This document shows, piece by piece, positions 28,763-60,509 of a stretch of 64,000 nucleotides of DNA. Under the pieces are notes generated by a model. The model was not told where the DNA came from and ran no database searches. It worked only from the letters and a program-made list of their open reading frames with translations. The stretch is from Tetraselmis striata. Lineage: Eukaryota > Chlorophyta > Chlorodendrophyceae > Chlorodendrales > Chlorodendraceae. Position 1 is the first letter of the stretch. Every line of letters begins with the position of its first letter. The stretch is from contig VCJN01001044.1 of NCBI GenBank assembly GCA_006384855.1, forward strand, positions 1-64,000, in the 5' to 3' direction. The position numbers were made by a program, and so were the translations under genes.

Positions 28763-28853
28763 TTAGACGGAGTGCGAGTCACGTTGCCAGAAGCGAGTGT
28801 CTTGTCTTACAAGCCCCTCGCCACACCAAACAAGATGGGTGGGACGGGTGGGT

Positions 28854-29104
28854 GCGTGAAGCGCAACAACAAAAGGGATGAGCGCTATGGTCTAGACAGT
28901 TGGCTAAGTAGTAGCTGCAGGCAGGCAGGGAAACAGGTCGGGAGCTGGTGCGGTCGCGAGTCCGCTGCTCACTGTCCCATCCTGGAAGATTCGAGACAGA
29001 GCCGATGACTGGCTCCTGTGCTATATTTTCCAGGTGGTAGTCGTTTGACCGCACAACTCGGTCCGTCGTCTGACGAAACTCAGTTAAGTACTTAACAACG
29101 ATTA
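28854..29104 (-). repeat. DIRS element A2 repeat
   Basis: 251 bp matching 33419-33669 with only a few substitutions. It is flanked on one side by B1 and, about 63 bp away on the other, by B2. It contains the small palindrome AGTTAAGTACTTAAC near its end. Confidence 0.9.
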
Positions 29105-29129
29105 GACAGAGTGCGAGTCACGTTGCCAG
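29102..29129 (-). repeat. DIRS element B1 repeat (partner 28763-28790)
   Basis: 28-bp repeat containing GAGTGCGAGTCACGTTGCCAG. The second copy at 28763-28790 marks the outer 3' end of the element. The two differ at one base (GACAG against GACGG). Confidence 0.8.
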
Positions 29130-29166
29130 GCAAAACCGGAAGGCCACAGTTACCGGTGAAAACCAG

Positions 29167-30330
29167 TCACTGTGAAAGATTAGCAGCGGAACGCTGCGGT
29201 GCCAGGGAGCCGAAGAAGTAGCGGGCCCCAGCGGAGTCCATGATGCCTAGCACGATGTAATTGAGGACCACGCCGCTGCCCACTTTCCAGCCGCCAAGCC
29301 AGCGAATCGTAGGCATAGGGACGCCCGTGGCCGAGGCCGCGGACGCCCCGCCACTGCGAAGGCTGTGCGACGACCAGCAGAAACCAGCAGGCAGGGTAGC
29401 GTCAACTGCCAAGGCAGCGGCAGTAACCCATTCGGAGACAGTAGCCGCGGTCCACGTGCCGGGATCATCATCAGGGAGCTGCCAAAACCGAGTAGCACCG
29501 GGCAGCACGTGATCGCGGCAGGTGACGAAGAACTCCAAAAGCTCCGCGATTTCGGGGTGCGCCTCACGGGAAATTTGCAGCACCGGACGAGGCGCCCCGG
29601 AAGGCTTGCCCTTAAGTACTCGACGGTACAGCGTAATGCTGCGGGAATCAACCGCCAAATCGCGCACGCCGCACCCCGTACTAGTACCCGCGCGGTGACA
29701 AAAAAGGAAATTGACCGCGGTAACGAGCAGGGCACGGAATGTGGGCAGGTCGCACGCGATGGACCTGTGAGAAACCAGCCGCTGCGCACGCCGAAAACAT
29801 GCGAGGGCGACGTTCGCAGGCAAAGGCACCCGGTAGTCCGGGGCGTCTAGCACCTGCTGAGCCAGCTCCCAACCGCGCATCGCCTGGTTGACGAAAGGCC
29901 CAAGCGCCGGCGGCTCCTTGAAATTATCGGTGACAAAGGCGTTGATCGCTGAAAGGTAGGGTCCAAAGGCACCAGCCTTGTTGCGGCCACGTGCCGCAAC
30001 TCAGGAGATGTACCGAACGATGAGCGGCGGATCCGCCGTGTCCGGCAGTCTCCCATTTTGCGCGCAGAACTCGCAGAATAGGTTGAATTCAGATCCGTAA
30101 GACTGCACGGTACGTTCCGCGCGCGAAGACATCAAGAAATTCGCGGCACGGCGCCCAACCTCGTCGTCGCCGAGTAACCGCAGTAGCCCAGGTCGCATAC
30201 TCGCTGCCCATGGTGCAGACGGTACGTTCGATTTCAACCCGTACCGCACAGCCGGGTGTTGTCTGCTGTGAGCATCTGTACGGGAGATCTGAAAAGCGTC
30301 CGCGGAAACGTCCAAGGTAGCAGCAGCAGT
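29167..30330 (-). pseudogene. DIRS tyrosine recombinase
   Basis: The N-terminal SAM-like part (RAERTVQSYGSEFNLFCEFC, about 30120) is separated by a stop near 30001 from the catalytic part (29880-29167). The catalytic box HSLRSGGASAASATG (about 29365) supplies the H..R pair. GGW follows about 25 residues later, and VLNYI supplies the nucleophile Tyr (about 29257). This enzyme would integrate a circular DNA copy, in place of a DDE integrase. Confidence 0.75.
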
Positions 30331-30332
30331 AC

Positions 30333-30960
30333 TTAACGCCCCGTAACCGGCGCGTCGCGACCGGTAGAAGAAGGACGGAAGGGAAGGCGGAAGAGCATCA
30401 CGCTCCAGGGCGGCGGCCCGACGCCCGCGCGGCGCCGGAGCAGCCCGGGAAAGAACAGATCGCGGGAAGGAGGGTAGTGCAGTACCTCCGTAGCCATCTC
30501 GTGTAGCTGCTGGAGCCAAGGGCGGCCGTGCCAGGCCGGGGCGACCACGGTCGCCGCGGCGCGCGATTGCTGCAGCTTTAGCACCAGCTCGTCCAGCAGC
30601 TGCCAGGGGGGATTGCACCAGTTCACTGCGGCGCGCCACGTGGCATCCGACTGGGCCAAGGAGTCCACCGCCTCGGTACCTGGGACCGTCCACTGGGAGT
30701 TGTACCGAGGTAACAAAGCGTTCTCCATAGTTGCGAATCGGTCGACGGTATGCGGTCCCCAGATGCGATCAACGTACCGGAATATACGAGGATTGATCAT
30801 CCAATCGGAAAAGTCCTTCTCGCGCGAAAGCTTGTCCGCCCATGCGTTCGCCGCAGACCGAATGTACCGTACTCGTAAACGGATATCGTGTACATCCAGC
30901 AAATACCATAGCTTGCGAAGTTCCGCCATAAGTACCGGTGACCGAGTAGTCAAATTGGAT
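30333..30960 (-). pseudogene. DIRS methyltransferase-like domain (NPPW)
   Basis: Continues from RNase H (MAELRKLWYLL, VRYIRSAANAWADKLSR) into the segment DRFATMENALLPRYNSQW. After it come WCNPPWQLLDELVLKLQQ and ATVVAPAWHGRPWLQQL. DIRS elements usually carry a Dam-like methyltransferase domain here. The NPPW tetrad resembles the catalytic (D/N)PP(Y/W) motif of N6-adenine or N4-cytosine methyltransferases. No activity can be assumed in a decayed copy. Confidence 0.6.
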
Positions 30961-32340
30961 AGGATTGCACCACCGCCTGATTGTCCTCGTACAAAAGTAC
31001 GCGGCGCCCCATCAGCCGTGGCAAAAATGACTGTATGGCGAGACGTACCGCTTTGAGCTCCTTGTACGTTATATGACGTCGACGATCCTCCTCGTACCAA
31101 TATCCGCGTGCCTCCGTAGTTTCGCACAGTATCGCACCCCAGCCGTACTGGCTGGAGTCCGTGTGCAGATAGGCTGTCTCAACCGGGCGCAGAATCGGTG
31201 CGCCGTTGTGGCGCGTGGGAACATCGCGCCACCACTCCAAATCGCGAATGAGCTGACGCGTCAGAACGACCTTGCCGCTCGGAGAGGAGCATCGGCCCAG
31301 GACGGTGTGCGCCTCGCGGAGGTAGAAACGCGCCGGAGGCATCGCGAGGTAGAGGAACTGGCCCTGCCCGGCGAGAGACGCAAGGAGTTTGGCCGGCGCG
31401 TGGCGGCGGCGGCGCGCAGCGATGCAGAGGAGGTCGCGGGCCAGGTTGGAGAGCCGACGCAGTTTCGCCGCTGGGGCGCGGAACTGCATAGTGACCAGGT
31501 CCAAGTCCAGGCCTAAGTGCTGCAGCTACTGGGTGGGCTCGGGATGCGCCTTGGTGGGATGCTTGGCCAGGCCCAGGCGCCCCCAGACTCGCTCGACCTC
31601 GGCCCGTAGGCGTAGAGCCAGCTGGCGCGAAGGTGCCAGAAACAGGAAGTCGTCGATAAACGGTAGGAGGCAAACGCCGCGCGCCTTGCGGCGACGCAAG
31701 CGTCGACGGAAGGGCCGGCCGTAGCTGCTGTAGGTCGCGAAGTCTGGTTGACGCAGGTAGCGCACCATGACTGCCATCAGAGTGCAGAAGTAATAAGGGC
31801 TCAGCGACCAACCCATGGGGAGGGCCGCGAAGCGCTACAGGGTGCCACGTACGTTGATCGTAAAGAAGTCGCGGACGTCCTCCCGCAAGCCCAGGGCGTA
31901 GTAGCCGTCCTGCAGGTCGAAGGAAAACGCCCAGTCGCCGCGTTTCGCCAGGTACCGCATGCGACGCAGAGTTTCGAATCGCATGGAATAGACCGCGCAG
32001 TAAGAGTTCAGATGGCGCAGGTCTATTGCAAGGCGCCACTGGTTGCAGCCCGGCTTTGGTACTGGGAAGACTCGCGACACGTAGTGCTCGCGCACGCCAG
32101 GTTCTAGCGCGCCGACTGTTACTAGTCGCTGGCTCTCCCGGTCCCACCACTCGAGCCGCTGAGGCGTAGCGTCCTGTAGAGAGACGCCCCGGTGGAAAGG
32201 CGTGGGCGCCGCGCCAGAGAAAGGTAGCGGCACTCCCTCGCGAACCCACCGGAGCACGCGCCCGCTCGCTCCGATTCGCCGCCACTCCCGCCAGTTCTGC
32301 CGCACGCGATGGCGCAGAAACGTTGAGGGGCGTGGTAACG
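30950..32340 (-). pseudogene. DIRS reverse transcriptase and RNase H
   Basis: RT fingers and palm: SRVFPVPKPG (about 32080), RLAIDLRHLN (about 32030), FSFDLQDGYYAL (about 31910), then after a frame break ALPMGWSLSPYYF (about 31810) and the catalytic box FIDDFLF (about 31655). RNase H follows in another frame: HTDSSQYGWGA (about 31170), TYKELKAV (about 31060) and DNQAVV (about 30970). Stops and frame shifts lie near 31830, 31510 and 30960. The motifs themselves look undamaged. Confidence 0.8.
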
Positions 32341-32363
32341 AAGCGGAACGGCGGGCCGCACCG

Positions 32364-33328
32364 TCAGGCCTTGCCCTTGCCCTTGTCGGCGTCGTCGGCT
32401 GTGGGGCGGAAGTCTGGGCGTGGGCGGCGGCCGGAGGGCCGGCGCCGTCGCGCTCTGGATGGTGGCTCGTCGTCGTTGTCCTCCTCCTCGTTGGGGTCTG
32501 GTCCCACGCCGAAGCGCTGTTGTACGGCTGCCTTCGCCGCCGCCGTGACGCTGTACTCGGCCTCGCGGCGCAAAAGCTCGTCGCTGAGCTGCGCCACTGC
32601 TTCCGAACCATAGTCCGCGAAACCGGGCTTGAGGAGGCTGCGGCGAACCACCTGTGCGACTGTCTTGGTCCGCGCATCCGCATCGTTCGACGCGTTGAGG
32701 CGGATAAACGCCAGGAAGTCGCGCCGGTGTTTATTTGAGGCGTCGTAGGCCGCCACGCCCGCTTCAAGGAGGCGAAGGTCCTCCTCACTAGGGGGCTGCG
32801 CCGCGCTTGCCGCTCTCTTAATCGACGCGAGCGCCTCGCAGAGAGCCGCGTGGGCCACCGCATCGTAGAAGCCAAAGCAGTACAGAGAGCGGTACTGATC
32901 CAAAGTGGCCCAGTGCCGACGCGCGATGAGCTGGCGGTGCGTCTCGTCAGATGAGATGTCGTACAACTGGGGAATCGGAGAGAGGCCGGGACTGGGCTGG
33001 ACGGAAAAGCCGGGGCCAATTAAATGAGCCCACTCCTCCCTGACTGGAAGTAAGGGGCAGCGGCACTAGGGCCACCGCGCTGGGGCTGGAGCACGGAAAC
33101 CTGCTCTGCGCGAGCCGGTGCGTCGTGCTGGGAGCTCGCCGCGGCAGCGCTACTAGCGGGCGCGCGGGGCTCGGTAGGAGTAGAACCACTAGGCCGCTGA
33201 AGGTCACTTCGTAGGGCTTCCAGAAGCTCCGTAAGCCCCGCGAAACCGGCCTCCAGCGCGGCGATGCGGTCTTCGGCTAGGCCCCTAGGGGCGTCACCGG
33301 AGTTGTCAGGCATATTGAGCCCTGACAA
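32364..33328 (-). pseudogene. DIRS gag-like region
   Basis: Two adjoining frames (33328-33020, then 32966-32364) encode an N-terminal acidic coiled-coil-like part (DRIAALEAGFAGLTELLEAL). This is followed by a Ser/Ala/Pro linker and a 200-residue helical segment ending in a basic tail (RARRRRPSGRRPRP) that could bind nucleic acid. The position directly upstream of RT and the composition fit the DIRS gag ORF. There is no zinc knuckle. The frame break near 33000 suggests decay. Confidence 0.6.
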
Positions 33329-33418
33329 TGCCGTGCGCAGGGCGTCGTGCTAGCGCATGCGGATAATATCGACAAGGATCGCTTCCCCTCGCGGCACAGG
33401 TGCCGCGCGATTGCTGGG

Positions 33419-33669
33419 GCGTGAAGCGCAACAGCAAAAGGGATGAGCGCAATGGTCTAGACAGTTGGCTAAGTAGTAGCTGCAGGCAGGCAGGGAAACA
33501 GGTCGGGAGCTGGTGCGGTCGCGAGTCTGCTGCTCACTGTCCCATCCTGGAAGATTCGAGACAGAGCCGATGACTGGCTACTGTGCTATATTTTCCCGGT
33601 GGTAGTCGTTTGACCGCACAACTCGGTCCGTCGTCTGACTAAACTCAGTTAAGTACTTAACAACGATTA
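33419..33669 (-). repeat. DIRS element A1 repeat
   Basis: 5' end copy of the 251-bp A repeat in element orientation. Beyond 33669 the similarity to the other copy stops, where the other copy runs into B1. Confidence 0.9.
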
Positions 33670-47731: not shown

Positions 47732-49478
47732 GGTGCCGCTCCCCGATCGGTCGACGTCGGGGCGCTAGTGACTGAGGCGACGCAGGCGGCAGGTGAGTTT
47801 CCCACTTTGCGCGCGCAGGTCAGCTAGCGCCTGGTCACATGCGACGCGAGCGCCCCGTTGGAACGTCCGGCCTGACCACCCTGTTGGACCGGTCGCCCGC
47901 AAGCGCTCTCGCCGCCAGCTCGCCTCGACGCGTCGCGCTGGGCAGCTGTACAGAGTCGGCGCAGCTGACCGCGGGGATCCCAGTGACGCCACTGTACGGA
48001 CTGACAGCTGCTGTGCCCTGCCACTAGCGGGTCGCCTCTACTGTTCGCGTCTGCATGCCGGCGACCTCAAATGGCGCGATTGTGCGCGTGCAACGCGCGC
48101 GAAGCCTGACGACAACCGCCGCCTGCTGATACTCCGCTTCCCGATACAGCCGCGTACTGTACACGGTAAACCTCGCAGCAGGTAGGGATTGCCCTACTGT
48201 AATATCGTTACCTTAAAAGAGCTATGATGGTCGCTACTGATGTGAATTAAAAAAAGGTCAGTAACAATAAATCCACCGCTAAAAGCAGCAGTCCTGACTA
48301 ACGGATCAACGACACGCAAGCCGCTTAAAAGCGGCCCGCATCCCGCACAATGCGGGATGAATGAGGGATGCGCGCCCGAGTCTCAGAGTCCGGTCTACTC
48401 GCGCACGTGTGTAGCGACCAGGGCGAGGGTGATCCGCAGATGCGCTGTGCAGCTTCGGAAACGGGATGGCGGACGAATCTGCGCCGTCTGCTGAGGCAGC
48501 GAGCACGCTCTCGAGCCGCCACCAAGCTGAGGACCCCGAGAAAATCTTGCGAGTACGGCCTCCTGGTGAGTCCGGGTGGTGCACCGAGTGCCCCGCGATG
48601 AGAGGGCGCCGCGATCGGCGGCCAAGCATGCGACACCGCACACAATGCGGCGCCCCCCCCTGCTCACCTCACGTCTTCACCCACTGTGCCGCACCGTGCC
48701 TGTGTACTCCGACATGGTTTCATGCGTGTACAGGTGTGAATTACAAAAAGGGCAGTTCCCCAGAATTACAGGTACCCGTATTAGTCTCAGCAGGATCTCT
48801 GGGTTTTGACATTTGTCAGGGCTTCACCAGGTTATGTTAGGTTAAATAATTGTAGTGCCTCCGTCATCCCCGCCGCCGGGCGCGCCAGGGACCAGTCACA
48901 AGTCCACGTCAGATGCACCGTCAGCAGCACCCGGACACCCTCGCGCCTCAGCTGACCGGCCATAGCCGTACCCGTATCCACACAAGCAAGCAAGATCTTA
49001 GAGCAGCAGCACACAGCATGCGGACATGCGCAACCGGACGCTTTTCGGGTCCCGCTGAAATTGCCTGACGTATGTCATATATTACTGTCTAACTTTCGTA
49101 TATTATTCGGGATATTTGACAGCACGCGAGGGAGCACCGATCGATTATCTCCTTGTCTCCACGCGTTTTCGTACCTGCTGTACGGCGCGGTGTTCAGCAA
49201 TTCTCCTACCAGCCGCATCAACCTGTTGACGATGCCACGATGGGTCGCCTCCCGCCACACCACCGCAGTTCACAATCTGCTCCGCCACAGTCGACAGCTC
49301 TCAGACCAGTAGACAGCAGCGACCTCGGTAAGGAGGCAAGAAGCCCCCCCGCCGACATCACCCGCAGTGCCCGGCGACCTGCCGCCGCGTTGGTACCCAG
49401 CCACAACACGTGCACACTATAACTTCATTATTTAGTAGTTAAACCGCCGCGCCACTCGACACACCCCACGCCACCAGC
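47732..49478. other. Intergenic region between kinesin-9 and the small two-exon gene
   Basis: The two genes are divergent, so both promoters should lie here. I see no canonical TATA box at either end. GGTGTGAATTACAAAAAGG followed by GCAGTTCCCCAGAATTAC is at about 48731, close to the copy at 10129. A shorter TGTGAATTAAAAAAAGG is at about 48239. Confidence 0.5.
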
Positions 49479-50103
49479 ATGGCTTCCGCCCTCCTTCGCG
49501 CCCCCGCGTCCACTGTGCACGCAACCTCGAGCGGTCCCCGAAGCCGAAGCACTGCGTCGTCCAGCCTCAGTCACCGGCGGCCGGCGGTCGCCGGCCGCGC
49601 CGTCCGGGTGGCCGCCAAGCCGAGCGAGACGGAGAAGCACTTTGAGTTCCGCGAGGACGTGGGGGAGTGCGACCTCGCGGACGTCAAGGACGTGAGCCCC
49701 CCCCCCCCCCCCCCCCCCCCCCACCTCCCACGGCCCCCCTCTGCCGACCCCGGCACCCCCTCCCCCGAGACCCCCCATCCCCTGTCCTCGCCTACTCCGA
49801 GTCTAGCCGCTCGAATATACGCGCCCCTTTTGACGAGATGCCCGGGCTGCCATGTCCCTGCGCCGCCGATCAATTTGTCTCTTTGTGTCCGCTGGCGATG
49901 GCCCAGTCAAATCTACTTCCATCAATGTGGTGGGATGAATGGGGACTCGCGGAATAACAAAGTGCGCTTTCACCTGTGTACTTCCAATTTTGTCGACAGC
50001 ATTGCGCGCTTATACAGGTACATCAACACGCATCAACGCGAGTACTCTGCCCCCAGGCTTTCCACGAGTGAAAATGCGCCACCGCGTTCGCCGGTTTTTC
50101 GTC

Positions 50104-50201
<98 letters not shown>

Positions 50202-50664
50202 GTCCGAGTGTGTTTCGTCTATGAGTGTATGGTGTGTGTTGTCAATTCGTTGAATTTTGAGGTATGCAATATATACACGGATGCAAACTTCGCTCGGCCA
50301 TGCTATTGGGGAGACGTGCATCCGTATGCATGTTGACGGCACAGGGGTTTGTTTTGTTTTCGCTGGCGGCCGCGTATGATCATCAATGTCCCGCCATTGC
50401 CTCTATTATGTGTGCACTCCCTGGACTTGCGGTGCCGGACTCGGAATGCGGGCGCATCTGTGCGGCGGCCTGACGCGTGTGCCCCCGGCTTGCTTGCAGG
50501 CGCTGGACGCGTGCGCGGGGCTGGAGGGGCAGGAGCTGGAGGACTGCTGGGCCAGCTTCAACTGCAACGTGGAGAAGGTGACCAACCACTACGCCAAGGT
50601 GGCCGGCGTGGAGCCCAAGCTCAAGAAGGAGGCCGACGCCGACAAGGCGAACGGCGCGGAGTGA
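49479..50664 (+). CDS. Small plastid-type protein with a cysteine pair, possibly CP12-like
   Basis: Two exons (49479-49691 and 50500-50664) join in phase to 125 residues and end in TGA. The N-terminus (MASALLRAPASTVHATSSG, rich in Ser/Arg and lacking acidic residues up to about residue 45) looks like a chloroplast transit peptide, with a plausible cleavage near VRVAAK. The mature part reads HFEFREDVGECDLADVKD, then ALDACAGLEGQELEDCWASF and NCNVEKVTNHYAKV, and ends Lys/Ala-rich. The DACA..(E)DCWA.F...VEKV pattern faintly resembles the N-terminal cysteine pair and AWD.VEEL stretch of CP12, the Calvin-cycle redox linker. The C-terminal CP12 cysteine pair is missing, so that assignment is weak. 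The intron contains a C homopolymer next to the donor and a long (GT)n tract. Confidence 0.7.
50104..50200. repeat. (GT)n microsatellite in the intron of the small plastid-type gene
   Basis: Nearly pure GT dinucleotide run of about 95 bases with a single GC interruption near 50160. It produces spurious Cys/Val and Thr/His open frames on the two strands. Confidence 0.95.
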
Positions 50665-53415: not shown

Positions 53416-53895
53416 TGTTGTTTCGATTGAGTCTGCTGAGTTGCGCAGATTCACACAGTGGAGACCACCAGGTTGGTGGGAAATTAAGGAACTTCTGGTA
53501 TTACAATATTGGTACATTCGCCCATGATGTGTCCTGGCTCAGAGGTGCTCAGACATCTCTGAGACCTTCTGCACAAATGAGGTTCCTATTCCAGTACCTA
53601 AGGCATGTAGGTCGCGCCGCCACAGGCCTAATCAGGATGCTGTTAGAGGCTGATTGGTGGAACCTCATTCATTGCCTATGGGCGAGTTATCCCTTGTGAG
53701 TGCGTGGCTGGTGGGCCGCTTCAGCCCCACCTGAGTTGGCAGCTCTGCTCCAGGAGCAGGATTCTGCTCCTGGGCTAGTACTTAATTAGTACTTCCTTAC
53801 TACTTGGTAGTACCTAAGTCTCAGTAGGTGCTCAGTTCAGTTGGGGCCAAAACCTTCCCTAGGGTTTTAGCCCTACTTGCACTAGTGCTTCAACA
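53416..53895 (-). repeat. Copia 3' LTR (element orientation)
   Basis: 480 bp, TGTTG...CAACA. It aligns along its length with 60021-60509 but with many substitutions and indels, pointing to an old insertion. It contains a perfect 10-bp hairpin (53750-53759 with 53764-53773, CCAGGAGCAG stem) conserved in the other LTR. The adjacent base run CCCCTCCTC (minus GAGGAGGGG) is the polypurine tract. Confidence 0.92.
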
Positions 53896-53902
53896 CCCCT
53901 CC

Positions 53903-54690
53903 TCACGGAGCGCTGGCACTCCGGTGCTTAACACGGCAGGCAAGTCGCTCAAACTGAGGGTTAGGGACAGGCTTGATGAATAAGATATCAGCGAGCATCT
54001 CACCGCTGGACACATAGTAGATTCCGACCACGTTGTCTCGGTGTGCATCCCTCACGAAGTGCAACCTGATGTCCAGATGCTTTGTCCTGCCGGACGCGCT
54101 GTCTGTGGACGCAATGGCAATGCACGCCTGGGTGTCCTCACCCAGCGGCGTGGGCTCCAGTTGGGGGTACCCAGCATTCAGTAAAGGAACTTGTCCTCCT
54201 GGACAGCCATGCTGAGTGCAAGTACTCAGCCTCGGCGGTTGTGGTGCGCGCGGTGTTGTGAACTTGTCCGTGGGGGCAAAGGTGGCAGCGTAATCGATGC
54301 CGTCGGTCTGAGAGTGTCCTTTGCAGCACATGCGCGCCTTGAATCGCGCGACGGGCGGTGCCGTCGGAGTGGTACCTCACCTTGATGATCCGCTTGCAGC
54401 GGATGGCCTTGCGTCCGGCAGGCGGCAAGGTGAGCTCCCAAGTATCACGGGCGATTAGGGCGACGTATTCTGCCTGGATTGCTGACAACCGCTCAGCGGC
54501 GTTGTCTGACCCGATGGCCTCGTTGCAGGACTGGGGGTCGCCTGCTGTTTCTCCGGCCGACAGGGCTGCGGCTGAGAGCATGGCTCGATCAGGGGAGGTG
54601 AAGTTGCCGGACACGTGAGCGGAGCTGCGGTCTCGTCCGGGGAGAGCGGGAACATTGCACTCGCGGTAGCGCACGTTGTCTGTGCGCACG
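53903..54690 (-). pseudogene. Copia RT/RNase H with internal deletion
   Basis: The RT start is present: SIQAEYVALIARDTWEL-like (about 54480), AIRCKRIIKVRYHSDGT (about 54395) and DGIDYAATFAPTDKFTT (about 54300). The sequence then jumps directly into the RNase H end: TTTAEAEYL (about 54240), GEDTQACIAIAS (about 54140), RTKHLDIRLHFVRD (about 54075) and GEMLADILF (about 53990). The palm with YVDD and most of RNase H, several hundred residues, are missing. The join lies at about 54250-54265 and is followed by a frame shift. Confidence 0.82.
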
Positions 54691-54799
54691 CGCCCGGAGG
54701 TGAGTTGTCCTGTACCGCGGGGCCGGGCTGCGCTGGTTGCCGGTCCGCTGGGACAGGCTGGTGGAGGCGTCGGGGTCGGGGCTGCTCCTGATGTCGTTG

Positions 54800-55790
54800 C
54801 TAGATGACTGAGACCGGGCTGGTGCTGTGGGGATTCGTGGCATCATCGGGGTGATGGGCTGCGGTGTGGGTCCGGGGGGTTCGTTCACGAGGCTCGGGGG
54901 GGCTTGGGGGCGGCGTCACGTGCGCCTGCTGGGTTGTCGTCTGGCGCGTCGCTGTCGCCCGATGCTGCAGAGTCACTATCAGCGTGTATGGGACCACCCG
55001 GGGGGTCAACCGTGGGTCAACCCCTCCTGAGCCGGGACTGCCTGTCCCCTCCTGAGAGGCAGGTCCCTCCTCAGGCAGGGACGGGTCAAAGCGGCCCAGG
55101 CGATCTGTTTCGTCTGGCAACGGTGGTGCGGGTATCGGGGAGCCACAGCAGCCACGCCGGGGAGTCAGGCAACCCACAAAGATTCCCTCACGGGCTGCGA
55201 CAGCATCCTTGGTGCGGGTGCCGCGCGGCGCGTGGACGGACGCAGGGCAGCCAGCCACACGCAAGCAGTGAAGCAAAAAACGGTCTCTGCCCTGTCAGAA
55301 GTTGCAGCGGGACGGAGGGTGCGGTTGTGAAGGCGAGCCGCAACCGCCATGGCAAACTGCCAGAACTCGGGACCCGGGCCAGAGTAGTTCATCATGCATC
55401 AAGCCAACACGTAAAGGGTGTACGCCGTGCGCTCGATCAGCCCATTCTGGAAGTGGTTGTAGGGGGCAGAGTACGTTCGTGCGATGTTGAGGTCGCCGGA
55501 GAGACGAATGAATTCCGTGTTGCGAAACGCAGAGTCATGGTCGAGACGGACAGCTCGCATGGCGCACCCCAGACTGGCCGCCATGCTGTGAAGGGCGCGA
55601 AGGCGCGCTGGAGCTGCAGCTCGGGATCTGCAGAAGTAGACTGCAACCAGGGAAGTGGCGTAGTCGGTGGCTCCACGGACGCAGGTGCTGCCCTGCAGGG
55701 ATTTCGTGGAATTCTGCCAGAGGCCCCGCGCGACAAGTGGGAAGGGCTCTGCGGGCTTGGGGTGGGTGCCTCGGGGACGGGGTGCCACGG
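54800..55790 (-). pseudogene. Copia integrase
   Basis: The catalytic core reads GATDYATSLVAVYF (first Asp), RLDHDSAFRNTEF (second Asp, about 55540) and YSAPYNHFQNGLIER (Glu about 55434). The spacing between second Asp and Glu is 35 residues, the DD35E signature. The C-terminal part continues with FWQFAMAVAARLHNRTL (about 55350), VAGCPASVHAPRGTR and REGIFVGC (about 55190), then a Pro/Thr-rich linker. The frame changes near 55400 and 55280. Confidence 0.82.
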
Positions 55791-55799
55791 TGGACTTGA

Positions 55800-56400
55800 C
55801 GATAGCGCGCGCCCTGCAGAAAGGGAGCGAGCACTTGGCGGGAACAGCTCCAGTTCCAAGCGACCCGGCTCACACAATGGCGTCCATACTGCGCTCATTG
55901 AGGTGAGCTAAGCGCGCATGCCATAGCTGCTTGGCAAGGGGGGAGAGGGCGCAGATGTTTCTGCGAGCAGGAGTGTAGGGGCGGCTGCATCAGCGGACGT
56001 GTGTGATGATCTGTGCCCGCAGGACGAGCAGCCTTTCGTTGGTGTGCAGCGGGATCATGGTTTGGTCCGGCAGTTCCATGCGTGGGTCGTCAGGCGTGCG
56101 GGCGATTCGGAGGCCAGCCCGGGAGTCCCTTGCCTGTCGACCGCTGAACAGGCGGAGGGACGTCCCCGTTCGTTTTGCGAGCGAGGTCAGGTACGTGCAG
56201 ACAAGCATGGGCCGCCCCCCGGACGGGTTGGCCACTGCTGGCGCGCAGCAACTGGTGGATAGTGCCTGTGCCAACGGCGTAGGCGCCGAGTCCGTGAACC
56301 CGGCGCTGTGGAATGGTCTGGTAGTCGCTGAAGTCAGAGAGAACTGACGACATGTGGCCCGCTGCCCCTGTGTCAAACACCCACCAGCCCAGAAATGTGC
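55800..56400 (-). pseudogene. Copia aspartic protease and gag-preintegrase region
   Basis: The protease active site is WVFDTGAAGHMS (Asp codon about 56374), followed by GLGAYAVGTGTI. The pre-integrase zinc-binding segment LWHARLAHLNERSMDAI lies at about 55930-55880. The protease would process the gag-methyltransferase-pol precursor. Confidence 0.8.
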
Positions 56401-56439
56401 GCAGGGCGAGATGGGCGCTGGTCGTGGCGGGGTGCAGAT

Positions 56440-57629
56440 GGGCAGTTCTCAGTGAGATGGGCTGCTTGCTGATGGCTGATACCAGCCACGTGCAGATGTT
56501 GGCGTCCACCGCGGCTCCGAGGTATCGTCGGCGAGCGTCCTCGGAGATGCGCGGGGACTGGAGGGTGGTGATGGGGAACCCAATGGCCGCTGCCCGGATG
56601 TCTGCTCCATCCGCTGTCCGTCCCTCTGCAGCATGCCACGTCCTGGCTCACTGTCGTGTATGCGGTACGCATGACTGCCCTTGCGCGACATAAACTGTGG
56701 GGAAGCGCTGTGGCGCAGCAGGGGCGCAGCCGACCAGACAGGACTGAAGCCGTGTCGGTCCGGCAGGTCACCAACCGTGATCGGGCGGCGGACGGAGGCT
56801 GCGTAGTGGCTTTGGAGCGCCTGGAGGCTCCGGAAGTTCGTCCACAGCCACTACGCAGAGGTGTCGCGTCTGGTGGTGGAGCCGAGCTCGTGCGCACGCA
56901 CGCACCATGATGGGGCTGCCCATGGCGTGACGCAGTTTGGGGAATCGCCTTGCGCCAGGTACGTTCTCCAGTACGTAGTTGACCGAGCCTTGCGTCTGGT
57001 GCAGCATCTGGAGGATGGTGCACGCTGCCTGCATGGGGGCAGCTGCCGGCTCCGATAGGCCTCTCTTGTTTCCCGCGTTGCAGAAGGGGGGGCATGGTGG
57101 CGTGCCCAGGAGCAAGCCAAATGCGCACCGATGGCTGTCAGATGGCCTGGCGTGATGGCGCGGATGTCCTGCGGGACGCACTCGTGGGCTGCTTTGATGG
57201 CAGACATCGGGAGAAGCCATGGGACGAGACTCAAAGACTGCGTCCAGATGACTTCGAGAAGTGGCCGGGTCTACCCCTTCCAATGATTGAGGAAGAGGAG
57301 CGAGCAGAGCGTGCAGCAGCGGAGAAGAGGAGACTCGAGGCGGCAGAGCGTCGAGGGGATTATGTGATCGAAGATGATGATCGGTGGTCGTGGTGGACGG
57401 CAAACAGCTCTTGCTGCATGGCGTCTCCTGCGCAGGCGCCCGTGTCTGTCAAGGCGAGCCTTCCGATCTTGTGTCGAGCTGCTGCGAGGGCACAAACCAG
57501 GCCGGGTAGGGCGCCAGAGCACAGCTGGAGCACGTGAATTGGCTTGCTCTTGTTGTGCAAGCAGTCTCCATCGGGGCCAGTGTGCTGGGTGCGCTGGAGC
57601 GGTGGAGGCTCCCTGGCTGCCTCTGTCAC
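56440..57629 (-). pseudogene. Cytosine-C5 DNA methyltransferase domain inside the Copia polyprotein
   Basis: All main C5-methyltransferase motifs occur in the right order on the minus strand. Motif I (SAM binding): VLQLCSGALPGL (about 57533). Motif IV with the catalytic Cys: LLLGTPPCPPFCNAGNKRGL (Cys codon about 57094). Motif VI: YVLENVPGARRF (about 56968). Motif VIII-like: LGSTTRRDTS (about 56880). Motif IX region: QFMSRKGSHAYR (about 56690). Motif X: AAAIGFPITTLQ then YLGAAVDANICTWL (about 56570-56490). Together these cover a full catalytic domain of about 390 residues. At least four frame shifts interrupt this copy. The motif X frame continues without a stop into the protease motif, so the enzyme was part of gag-pol. 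The active form would methylate cytosine in DNA. The closest host family cannot be settled by eye. Confidence 0.85.
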
Positions 57630-58840
57630 TTCAGCGGTGATGGCTGCGAATACATCGACGGCGTTGGTGTTGCCGATGCGTCACGCCTCGCAACGTGCCA
57701 GTTGCCTTGCTGCACGACGGCGGCGGCGTTTTGCGGCGTGCTGGCGGATGCGGTTGGGACGGAGTCCTGTGATGAAGTTGGCGTGGCCCTCAACACGCGA
57801 GCTGCAGGCGACATCTGAGCTGTCGCTGTTGGTGTTGCTGTCTGAGGAGTCAGCTGCCAAAGGTGGTATGTCATGGTTGCAGTCTGTGTGGTCCCCTCCT
57901 GTGGCCCGGTGCGGGCCAGCAAGGAGTCTGGCCAGACTGGTGACATTGGCGCGACAGGTGCGGGGGTGGCAGCAGCGGCGGCGGCGGCGATCCTTGTCGT
58001 CGGCCTCATCAGTGAGCTGGAGGAGGCGGAAGCAAGAGCCAAGAGATGGGATTGGCCCAGGCGTAGGAGCGATGCAGATGGACTGCAGCGGCAGGAGTTC
58101 GACAGGCGGGGCGTCATGATGCGGGGGGGCGGCCACGTCGGAGCCGAGATGATCGGGGAGATGGCTGTTGGGGTTTGAGGTGCCGAACGGTGGCAGCTGG
58201 ACAGAGGCGGAGACCCAGGCGTCCACCGAGCACTGGTAGTCATGCAGGCCAGCGCGGCGTCCTCGCCGGCTTCCATGACTGCGACCTCGGCGACGGCGAT
58301 GGCGGCGTCAGCGCGCTCGCGCGACGAGTTGGAGGGAGCGCGCTGGCGCTCACGACAAACAATGCGCAAAGCGGTGGTGGCTGCAACAAGGGCTACTTGG
58401 GGCCCGTGGGCACTTTCGCCTTTGAGTTCCATGGCCCATTCCGCCATGGCTGGGGCAACGGCATGAGGCTGGACAGCGTCACAGATGCCATGAGTCGAGC
58501 AGACAGTGCCGGAGCCGGCGCACTGGAGATGGCCGGAGACAGCGGCGGCATAGAGGTGGTCCTCCAGGGAGCGAACTCAGGGCTGGCGACTCCACAGCGG
58601 TAGCGCCGAATGCGTCGAAGAAGCCATCGGTGGCGGGATCGCTGGCGGGTTGAGCAACATCGCCCGCGGTGTAGGCCACCATGGCCATCCATGGAGGAGA
58701 CCCGCCGAATGCAAGGCGAGCGGAAGGGCTGCGCCCACCGTCACCCCCACCATTGCCACCACGGTCACCGTTGCAGTTGGCGTCGCGACGGCGGGGGCTC
58801 CCTCCTCGGGGGCGCACTGTGCCGTTCCGCGTGTCGGCGG
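57630..58840 (-). pseudogene. Copia linker between gag and methyltransferase
   Basis: Low-complexity Gly/Asp-rich and Ser/Pro-rich coding-like sequence, including GGNGGGDGG (about 58770) and ADSSDSNTNSDSSD (about 57820). No domain is visible. Standard Copia elements pass from the zinc knuckle to protease in under about 100 residues, so the roughly 1.2-kb linker plus the methyltransferase is an insertion. Confidence 0.5.
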
Positions 58841-59620
58841 CCAACTTACGGCACTCCCGTTTTGACGTGACCCTGCTCCCCGCAGTACCGCAGTACCCTG
58901 GGTTGTAGGCTGGGCGTCCTTCGTCCCGGTGAGCGCTTCCTGTCAACCCTCCAGGTGCAGCGGCGTTGAAGGCAGCAAGCTGGGCCTCCAGATATGCCAC
59001 GCGAGATATCAGCGCAGCGTGCTTGGCGTCTGCGTCAGATCACGCCTGACAGAATGTGCATGCCTTGATGGGCGAACTCTGGCCGTCTGCCGATGCCTTG
59101 TGCGAAGGCCGCGACCGTGGCAGCGGCGCTCGCCGGGGTGCCGAGCTCCTCCAGCTCCACACGGATCAGCGTCAGCCGGCTCATGTAGTCAAGGAGGTCT
59201 CCACTACGCAGCGTGCGCTTGTGCAGGAAACGTGGAAGAGTGGAGATACGCTTATCCTCGCCGTGAGGGAGGAAGGTAGCTCGCAGCGCCTCAAACGCCT
59301 TGCGTCCGCGATGATCGTCTGTAGAGGTGAGCCACGCAACTAGGACGCCAGACGCGCGGCGGCTGCTGACCAGTTGCTGTAGCACAGATAGCAACGCCAC
59401 ATGGTGCTGGGCCGAGCAGGTGGTGAAGCTTGTCTGCATTGAGGATAGTGGTGAAGCCTGCCTTGCTGGTGACAGCGCTCTGAAATTGTACAGGCCAAAT
59501 TAGAAACTGATTGACGTTCATGTCGTCGAGGGGGAGGTGCTTGACGTCCTTGGCTCGTAGCAGCTCCGAGGCAAGTTCCAAGGGGGGGCATGACGCTTGC
59601 TGATGAAGGGTTCAATCGAA
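58840..59620 (-). pseudogene. Copia gag
   Basis: Frames at 59581-59291 and 59439-59035 give DMNVNQFLIWPVQFQSAV, then GRKAFEALRATFLPHGEDKR and LLDYMSRLTLIRVELEELG, typical of the UBN2/Copia gag fold. A decayed CCHC knuckle follows near 58870-58910 (YCGEQGHVK in one frame, KRECRKLAADTRN in the next). It would form the capsid and bind element RNA. Confidence 0.75.
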
Positions 59621-60006
59621 AATCGGGCGAAGGTGAGGACAGCCAGAGTGTGGCAGAGGTGGCCCAAGTGGGCTAGGACAGCCACAAGGGGCAGCACACA
59701 CAACAGCTGGGGAGCTCGTGCTGGGGAGCAGCACAAGGCGCAGGTCGTGACAGCGCGAGGCTTGAGGGGTATATGCGCAACGCAGGGGTCCCACCAGCCA
59801 GCGCGTATTTGCTCGCTGTGTAGGCGGTCATGTTGTACAGCGGCATCACCCCGCCAGCTTGACTTGCATCGAAGAGGTTGACAGCCGCAGGGGGCCCAGT
59901 GGCGAGGGCAAGCACCACAAACTTCCGGAAAGGGGGGCAGGAAAACGCTGTAAGCCCATCCTATTCTCCAGCCAATCAGCAGTGTAGCAGAGAAGCTAGC
60001 TGTGGA

Positions 60007-60020
60007 GAGGGCTCATAACC
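60007..60020 (-). other. Primer-binding site for an internal fragment of initiator tRNA-Met
   Basis: Directly after the 5' LTR the minus strand reads GGTTATGAGCCC. This is complementary to the anticodon stem-loop GGGCUCAUAACC of eukaryotic initiator tRNA-Met, not to its 3' end. Drosophila copia uses the same half-tRNA priming arrangement (GGTTATGGGCCC). Confidence 0.8.
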
Positions 60021-60509
60021 TGTTGTTTCGAGAGAGTCTGTTGAGTTGCGCAGATGCACAGTGCAGCCACAGTGGAGACCACCAGGTTGGTGGGAAAGGA
60101 ACTTCTGTTTACAATATTAGTACATTAGCCAGTGATGTGTCCTGGCTCAAAGATGCTCGGACACCTCTGATGCCTTTTGCACAAATGAGATTCCTATTCT
60201 AGTACCTAAGGCCTGTAGGTTGCGCCGCTACAGGCCTAATCAGGATGCTGTTAGAGGCTGATTGGTGGAACCTCATTGCCGATGGGCGAGTTATCCCTTG
60301 TGAGTGCGTGGCTGGTGGGCTGCTTCAGCCCCACCTGAGTTGGCAGCTCTGCTCCAGGAGCAGGATTCTGCTCCTGGGCTGTTAGAACTTAATTACTACA
60401 TATATCCGTATAGTACTTAGTAGTACCTGTGTCTCATTGGGTGCTCAGTTCAGTTAGGGCCAAAACCTTCCCTAGGGTTTTAGTCCCTACTTGCACTAGT
60501 GCTTCAACA
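60021..60509 (-). repeat. Copia 5' LTR (element orientation)
   Basis: 489 bp, TGTTG...CAACA. Immediately inside lies GGGCTCATAACC on the plus strand (60009-60020), the primer-binding site. The 10-bp hairpin is kept at 60354-60377. Confidence 0.92.

Follow-up and report, generated by a model that had tools for sequence, protein, structure and literature searches.

A lineage of Ty1/Copia long terminal repeat (LTR) retrotransposons in the chlorophyte alga Tetraselmis striata almost certainly encodes a DNMT3-like cytosine-C5 DNA methyltransferase within its gag-pol polyprotein, between gag and protease. The evidence comes from a 64,000-nucleotide stretch of the T. striata genome (assembly GCA_006384855.1, contig VCJN01001044.1, positions 1 to 64,000; hereafter the window), in which an earlier note had described such an element, and from related elements elsewhere in the same genome. 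As that note had reported, C5-methyltransferase motifs I, IV, VI, VIII, IX and X were all found in order on the minus strand of the window, in an enzyme located between an upstream gag frame (59,038-59,499) and the downstream protease, and the frame of motif X reaches the WVFDTGA protease motif without a stop (56,159-56,617). TBLASTN searches of the window with intact polyproteins from the same genome returned the methyltransferase and protease at E 1.7e-66 and the motif I piece at E 3e-6, and the reversed window, used as a decoy, gave no matches with the same polyproteins. The presence of a methyltransferase in the window is hence beyond chance. The Pfam DNA methylase profile (PF00145), which the note had proposed as a check, gave a divided answer: the window copy scored 16.5 bits (E 0.0058; 15.6 bits for the stitched pieces), below the gathering cut-off of 22, whereas 13 of the 14 other carriers scanned passed it.

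The carrier family and the window copy

Searches of the T. striata assembly (224,097,584 bases) yielded 123 genomic matches to PF00145, part of them to other enzyme types. With the motif IV-VI piece of the window as query, 150 matches were obtained (150 scored of 205 candidates), the others being at most 51% identical to it; 71 of them lay in open frames of at least 1,000 amino acids (three LINE-type, for long interspersed nuclear element) and 26 in frames of at least 2,000 (one LINE-type). Twenty stretches, picked for their long frames and not a random sample, comprised 19 Copia carriers and one LINE (L026), and provided intact, recent copies; the earlier note had proposed a search for intact ones. 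The note's view that the enzyme is part of the polyprotein, as opposed to a host gene inserted once, is upheld by the 17 intact frames, 11 of which present motif IV followed by the protease motif in a single frame; nor is the enzyme missing from every other genomic copy, the outcome that the note had named as fatal to its view. In five second-lineage frames the script pattern recognised motif IV but missed the protease motif, which is visible by inspection in L020, and the remaining frame (L036) is enzyme-less. These counts show placement, not frequency, because carriers were chosen by PF00145 match.

The intact copies contain gag, protease, integrase and reverse transcriptase (RVT_2) in Ty1/Copia order, and the window copy presents gag, protease, integrase and a partial reverse transcriptase in the same order; an LTR pair, a polypurine tract and a primer-binding site are present in both. 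A Pfam scan of seven of these Copia frames and of L035, added later, identified seven domains, from zinc knuckle to reverse transcriptase, in one frame in L009, L016, L027 and L035, some of them below cut-off; the frames of L017 and L019 stop before the reverse transcriptase, and L020 and L024 have no zinc knuckle or Pol_BBD match. LTR pairs were 98.3-100% identical in 18 of the 20 loci, six of them at 100%, with L016 being nested and L026 lacking LTRs; the later addition L035 has a 445-bp pair at 100%. Of 19 intact copies, 18 have exact 5-bp target duplications and L018 is off by one base, by eye. Since the polyproteins of different subfamilies fall to 28% identity while LTRs are near-identical, the family has been long diversifying and recently mobile.

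In L009, L027, L035 and the window element, the primer-binding site corresponds to the anticodon arm of tRNA-Met and not to its 3' end; the matching runs are of 11 bases in subfamily E, of 8 in both A and C, of 7 in the window and of 4 in B (11/19). This suggests that an internal fragment of the tRNA serves as primer, as it does for Drosophila copia. Separately, Copia frames of about 1,561 amino acids recur many times on a few contigs (among them C440, C805, C1303, C1435, C1776, C2881; 150 listed of 897 candidates) and are perhaps centromeric; the one that was read (L036/L074, on G000:C440) has no methyltransferase.

The window copy is an old, dead Ty1/Copia LTR retrotransposon spanning 53,416-60,509 on the minus strand, with the following parts:

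60021..60509, minus strand: 5' LTR, starting TGTTG and ending ACAACA; CpG observed/expected ratio (o/e) 0.30
60002..60020, minus strand: primer-binding site GGTTATGAGCCC; 15 of 19 bases pair with the tRNA-Met anticodon arm of the same genome, 7 of them consecutive
59038..59499, minus strand: gag, open frame; 31% identity to subfamily E gag (L035) by BLASTP, E 4e-11
58830..58920, minus strand: likely but weak remnant of a CCHC zinc knuckle (CGEQGH), by eye; surrounding frame E 0.001
57396..57668, minus strand: methyltransferase, motif I part; TBLASTN E 3e-6 (L027) and 5e-6 (L040)
57211..57388, plus strand: 178 bp derived from an unrelated, high-copy repeat, lying between motif I and motif IV, whose plus strand encodes a EEEERAERAAAEKRR-type tail
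56897..57262, minus strand: methyltransferase motifs IV (GTPPCPPFCNAG, catalytic Cys) to VI (ENV); the well-supported match runs from 57,115 downward
56617..56898, minus strand: methyltransferase motifs VIII-IX, in a different frame with one in-frame stop
56450..56617, minus strand: methyltransferase motif X (GFP...RRYLGAAVDANICTWL), by TBLASTN and motif reading
56159..56450, minus strand: aspartic protease (WVFDTGAAGHM) and Pol_BBD (E 5e-5), in the motif X frame
55312..56199, minus strand: integrase, in another frame; rve E 2e-4, TBLASTN E 3.5e-64
55022..55313, minus strand: SH3-like domain downstream of the integrase, E 3.6e-5
54248..54554, minus strand: reverse transcriptase, N-terminal part only; the remainder, with the YVDD site, is absent
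53924..54184, minus strand: end of the RNase H domain only, by TBLASTN
53896..53904, minus strand: polypurine tract GAGGAGGGG, abutting the 3' LTR as in intact copies
53416..53895, minus strand: 3' LTR; CpG o/e 0.29

The two LTRs are 92.0% identical without gaps (Kimura two-parameter distance 0.085) and 87.5% with gaps, and no recognisable target duplication was seen by eye at the window copy (GGCGG against GGGTG). Its methyltransferase lies in four pieces with frame changes (I; IV-VI; VIII-IX; X). Because about 334 amino acids of reverse transcriptase and RNase H, active site included, are absent between 54,248 and 54,184, this copy cannot be autonomous. TBLASTN with intact polyproteins gave no gag match in the window, and the gag frame was recovered by BLASTP instead. 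Protein searches with the stitched window pieces matched only the gene model of this same locus (one of 3,055 candidates), and those with X-padded pieces returned no match among 7,993 scored; by eye, the EukProt gene model TSEL_011958 (Tetstr1, T. striata) is made up of stretches identical to pieces of the window locus. The 178-bp repeat piece has at least 39 other genomic matches among those listed (361 candidates), at 93-96% identity; its tail encodes an acidic, coiled-coil-like end, and L071 and L072 have about 1.2 kb in common.

Enzyme type and relationships among carriers

Residues, profiles and predicted structure together point to a complete DNMT3-like cytosine-C5 methyltransferase in the carriers, with conserved catalytic residues, a predicted fold of DNMT3 type and constraint on the domain. 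The catalytic Cys of motif IV, the ENV of motif VI and R175 are invariant in 11 aligned Copia, Gypsy and LINE carriers, and the window copy retains both the catalytic Cys and ENV. In a comparison with PDB profiles DNMT3A scored 49.5 bits and DNMT2 41.5, and the predicted model was nearest to DNMT3, about 4 Z units ahead of the next family, so that DNMT3 is closest in both profile and fold. DNMT2 was not among the 50 fold matches listed, which excludes nothing.

The same type of enzyme was identified in other retrotransposon classes. Two Gypsy elements from ENA (P0007 and P0008, in clusters of 35 and 8 sequences) encode it downstream of RNase H, accompanied in P0007 by a PHD finger and located between RNase H and integrase. 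In the T. striata genome, the LINE-like L026, with L073 (G000:C2687:12600-25399), encompasses a reverse transcriptase (RVT_1), a PCIF1_WW-type domain, the C5 methyltransferase and RNase H in one frame of 3,505 amino acids. The enzyme stands behind the PCIF1-type domain, and matches to both are paired in four genomic copies; endonuclease-like motifs were seen by eye only, and the N-terminal part gave no Pfam match.

A tree of the 11 retrotransposon enzymes with bacterial and viral-type enzymes and a single DNMT3 (DNMT3A, in pieces) split the retrotransposon enzymes and DNMT3A from the bacterial and viral-type side (support 98.7/100), and the 11 retrotransposon enzymes from DNMT3A, as sole DNMT3, and the rest (95/74). 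Copia lineage I (A, A2, C, D, E and P0006) was split from the remainder at 99.9/94; B paired with F (75.9/83) and the two Gypsy enzymes with each other (91.2/97); the tree gives no clear branching order for B/F, Gypsy and LINE. A comparison of integrases also groups P0006 with lineage I, leaving B and the enzyme-less L036 outside, and the reverse transcriptase of L036 is closer to lineage I (0.49-0.51) than that of lineage II is (0.33-0.36). Both two captures by Copia and a single capture followed by loss in L036 would fit this pattern. With regard to a viral origin, one weak phage-type match was obtained among viral contigs, and a pattern search gave no match for P0006 and no confirmed match for P0007. 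In bacterial contigs, 23 loci had short matches, and the 20 that were translated resemble ordinary bacterial enzymes.

CpG content and proposed role of the enzyme

Cytosine methylation is a classic cellular route to retrotransposon silencing, and retrotransposons bearing a methyltransferase therefore pose a puzzle. The LTRs of lineage I are CpG-poor (o/e 0.13-0.37; window 0.30/0.29, A 0.31, C 0.13, E 0.37) and present an excess of TpG and CpA, against a background of 118 window bins with a median of 0.99 and a single bin at or below 0.45, and against 1.19-1.21 in the enzyme-less L036, for the 331 bp of its LTR that were seen. The LTR relatives L031-L034, of unassigned content, have ratios of 0.44-0.61, and the DIRS-like repeat of the window 0.95. 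Within the window LTR pair, four transitions fall at 24 CpG positions and 19 at the 450 other positions, numbers too small to be given weight. The CpG-poor LTRs may reflect either selection for a CpG-free promoter or deamination of a methylated one, two processes that are indistinguishable here; the sample is also small. These LTRs point in a concrete and testable way to how a carrier may live with its own enzyme.

The explanation that we regard overall as the best, and as rather probable, is that Copia carries a DNMT3-like enzyme that marks the element's own new DNA. The enzyme would be made in step with gag and then be released or kept as a fusion, would accompany the reverse-transcribed DNA into the virus-like particle or the nucleus, and would methylate CpG in the new DNA of the element, with new copies arriving pre-marked like silent host chromatin. 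That methylation of its own DNA is the main job of the enzyme is a more tentative claim, to which we give slightly less than even weight. Such self-methylation had already been put forward in 2018 for retrotransposons of other classes (PMC5890265).

Several observations weigh against a DNMT3-like enzyme with this role. Subfamily E (L035) scores only 18.5 bits with PF00145, below the cut-off, and the enzyme domain is under weaker constraint than the reverse transcriptase (0.28 against 0.13, A versus C; ratios of nonsynonymous to synonymous substitution were obtained for seven of 14 pairs, one of the seven with saturated synonymous sites). The LTR of the lineage II carrier is not CpG-poor (0.83), and coding regions show no enzyme-specific loss of CpG, with ratios of 0.81-0.92 in carriers and 0.80 in the enzyme-less L036; depletion of coding regions by the enzyme was hence rejected, carriers and L036 being alike. 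According to the published accounts, no DNMT3 was recorded in MMETSP green-algal transcriptomes, a set in which Tetraselmis is named (PMC9998398), and KnitGypsy-Dnmt3, from a charophyte alga, was inactive in a yeast assay that its authors deemed inconclusive (PMC5890265). To these are added the absence of the second Arg of DNMT3A motif VIII and the score of DNMT2, an RNA enzyme, which also bear on the alternatives below.

The enzyme might instead act mainly in trans, on the host genome and competing elements, with its own CpG-purged LTR promoter escaping silencing. The contrast between the LTRs of lineage I and both the window bins and the L036 LTR argues for this, but the ratio of the lineage II carrier does not, the comparison covers no more than four subfamilies of carriers and a single LTR family without the enzyme, and loss of CpG with gain of TpG and CpA can also be explained by simple deamination, whichever enzyme methylated the LTRs; we judge a trans role unlikely. 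A broader proposal, marginally less likely again, is that the DNMT3-like gene is a shared retrotransposon weapon moving among superfamilies (two Copia lineages, Gypsy and LINE), with the CpG-stripped promoters of lineage I leaving its LTRs immune while CpG-rich targets, competitors included, are silenced. If true, this would amount to a self/non-self logic resembling restriction-modification, but acting on expression.

Modification of RNA, either the genomic RNA of the element or its tRNA primer, is improbable: DNMT2 tRNA methyltransferases rank well in the PDB profile comparison, and the stitched window pieces match DNMT2 only, weakly (best E 0.01), but DNMT3A leads by 8 bits and the predicted model lies nearest DNMT3. 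Retention of the domain for structure or binding, as an enzyme that no longer works, for which the unconserved second Arg and the residues other than Pro before the catalytic Cys in P0006 (PDC) and L038 (PCC) could be cited, is more improbable still, since a catalysis-free role is hard to sustain with catalytic Cys, ENV and R175 invariant across Copia, Gypsy and LINE carriers. Chance motifs, or a single host-gene insertion into one element, would accord with the low PF00145 score of the window copy, but are virtually untenable, being refuted by the 150 genomic matches, the intact copies, the TBLASTN match at E 1.7e-66 and the empty decoy search.

Published carriers and further observations

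Methyltransferase-bearing LINE, DIRS and Gypsy elements have already been published (PMC5890265), and the published carriers considered here are few and in element classes other than Copia. KnitGypsy-Dnmt3, from the charophyte Klebsormidium nitens (de Mendoza 2018, PMC5890265), is, like the T. striata element, a green-lineage algal LTR retrotransposon with a DNMT3-related domain in its pol polyprotein under purifying selection. By its published description, it is a Gypsy element in a charophyte, whereas the T. striata element is a Copia (RVT_2, with integrase before reverse transcriptase) in a chlorophyte, with the enzyme between gag and protease. SymbioDIRS-Dnmt3, from Symbiodinium, also bears an enzyme of DNMT3 type within its pol frame, and this enzyme methylates CpG in yeast, but the element is described as a tyrosine-recombinase DIRS element of dinoflagellates, unlike the T. 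striata element with its LTRs, Copia reverse transcriptase and integrase (PMC5890265). SymbioLINE-Dnmt, likewise from Symbiodinium, resembles L026 as a LINE with a methyltransferase, but is presented as an orphan lineage whose enzyme lies mostly in an open reading frame upstream of that of the reverse transcriptase, while the enzyme of L026 is inside the frame bearing the reverse transcriptase and adjoins the PCIF1-type domain (PMC5890265). The T. striata Copia carriers do not present the backbones of Gypsy, LINE or DIRS elements.

As the earlier note had suggested, the host is a different alga, T. striata being a chlorophyte and thus outside the dinoflagellate and charophyte hosts described in 2018 (PMC5890265). 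A 2025 article in Mol Biol Evol names 'LTR Copia and DIRS' DNMT3s in streptophytes and dinoflagellates, citing the 2018 paper (PMC12344493), the main text of which uses 'Copia' once, for a Symbiodinium Copia without DNMT (PMC5890265); the 2025 mention may be a slip or an unstated Copia case. Searches of the open-licence literature turned up no active, methyltransferase-bearing Copia family from a chlorophyte, with subscription papers, Repbase and preprints outside their scope. Near-identical intact carriers, an enzyme-less Copia family and a second carrier lineage are found together in one culturable marine green alga, and such co-occurring carriers and non-carriers offer a natural comparison of whether self-methylation aids the spread of an element.

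A C5 methyltransferase of another type, of about 325 amino acids, is repeated beside frames that look viral by eye (L001-L006, L008, L042), and a similar one stands, by eye, beside a Tc1-like transposase (L007). The window also contains, by eye, a DIRS-like element on the minus strand (28849-33669), in which 256-bp repeats, 97% identical, flank reverse transcriptase, RNase H and tyrosine recombinase, and, on the plus strand (49443-50664), a gene with an intron that resembles chloroplast CP12 and fits a green alga. Overlapping direct repeats at 960-2321, with offsets of about 300 and 570 bp, are 83-96% identical.
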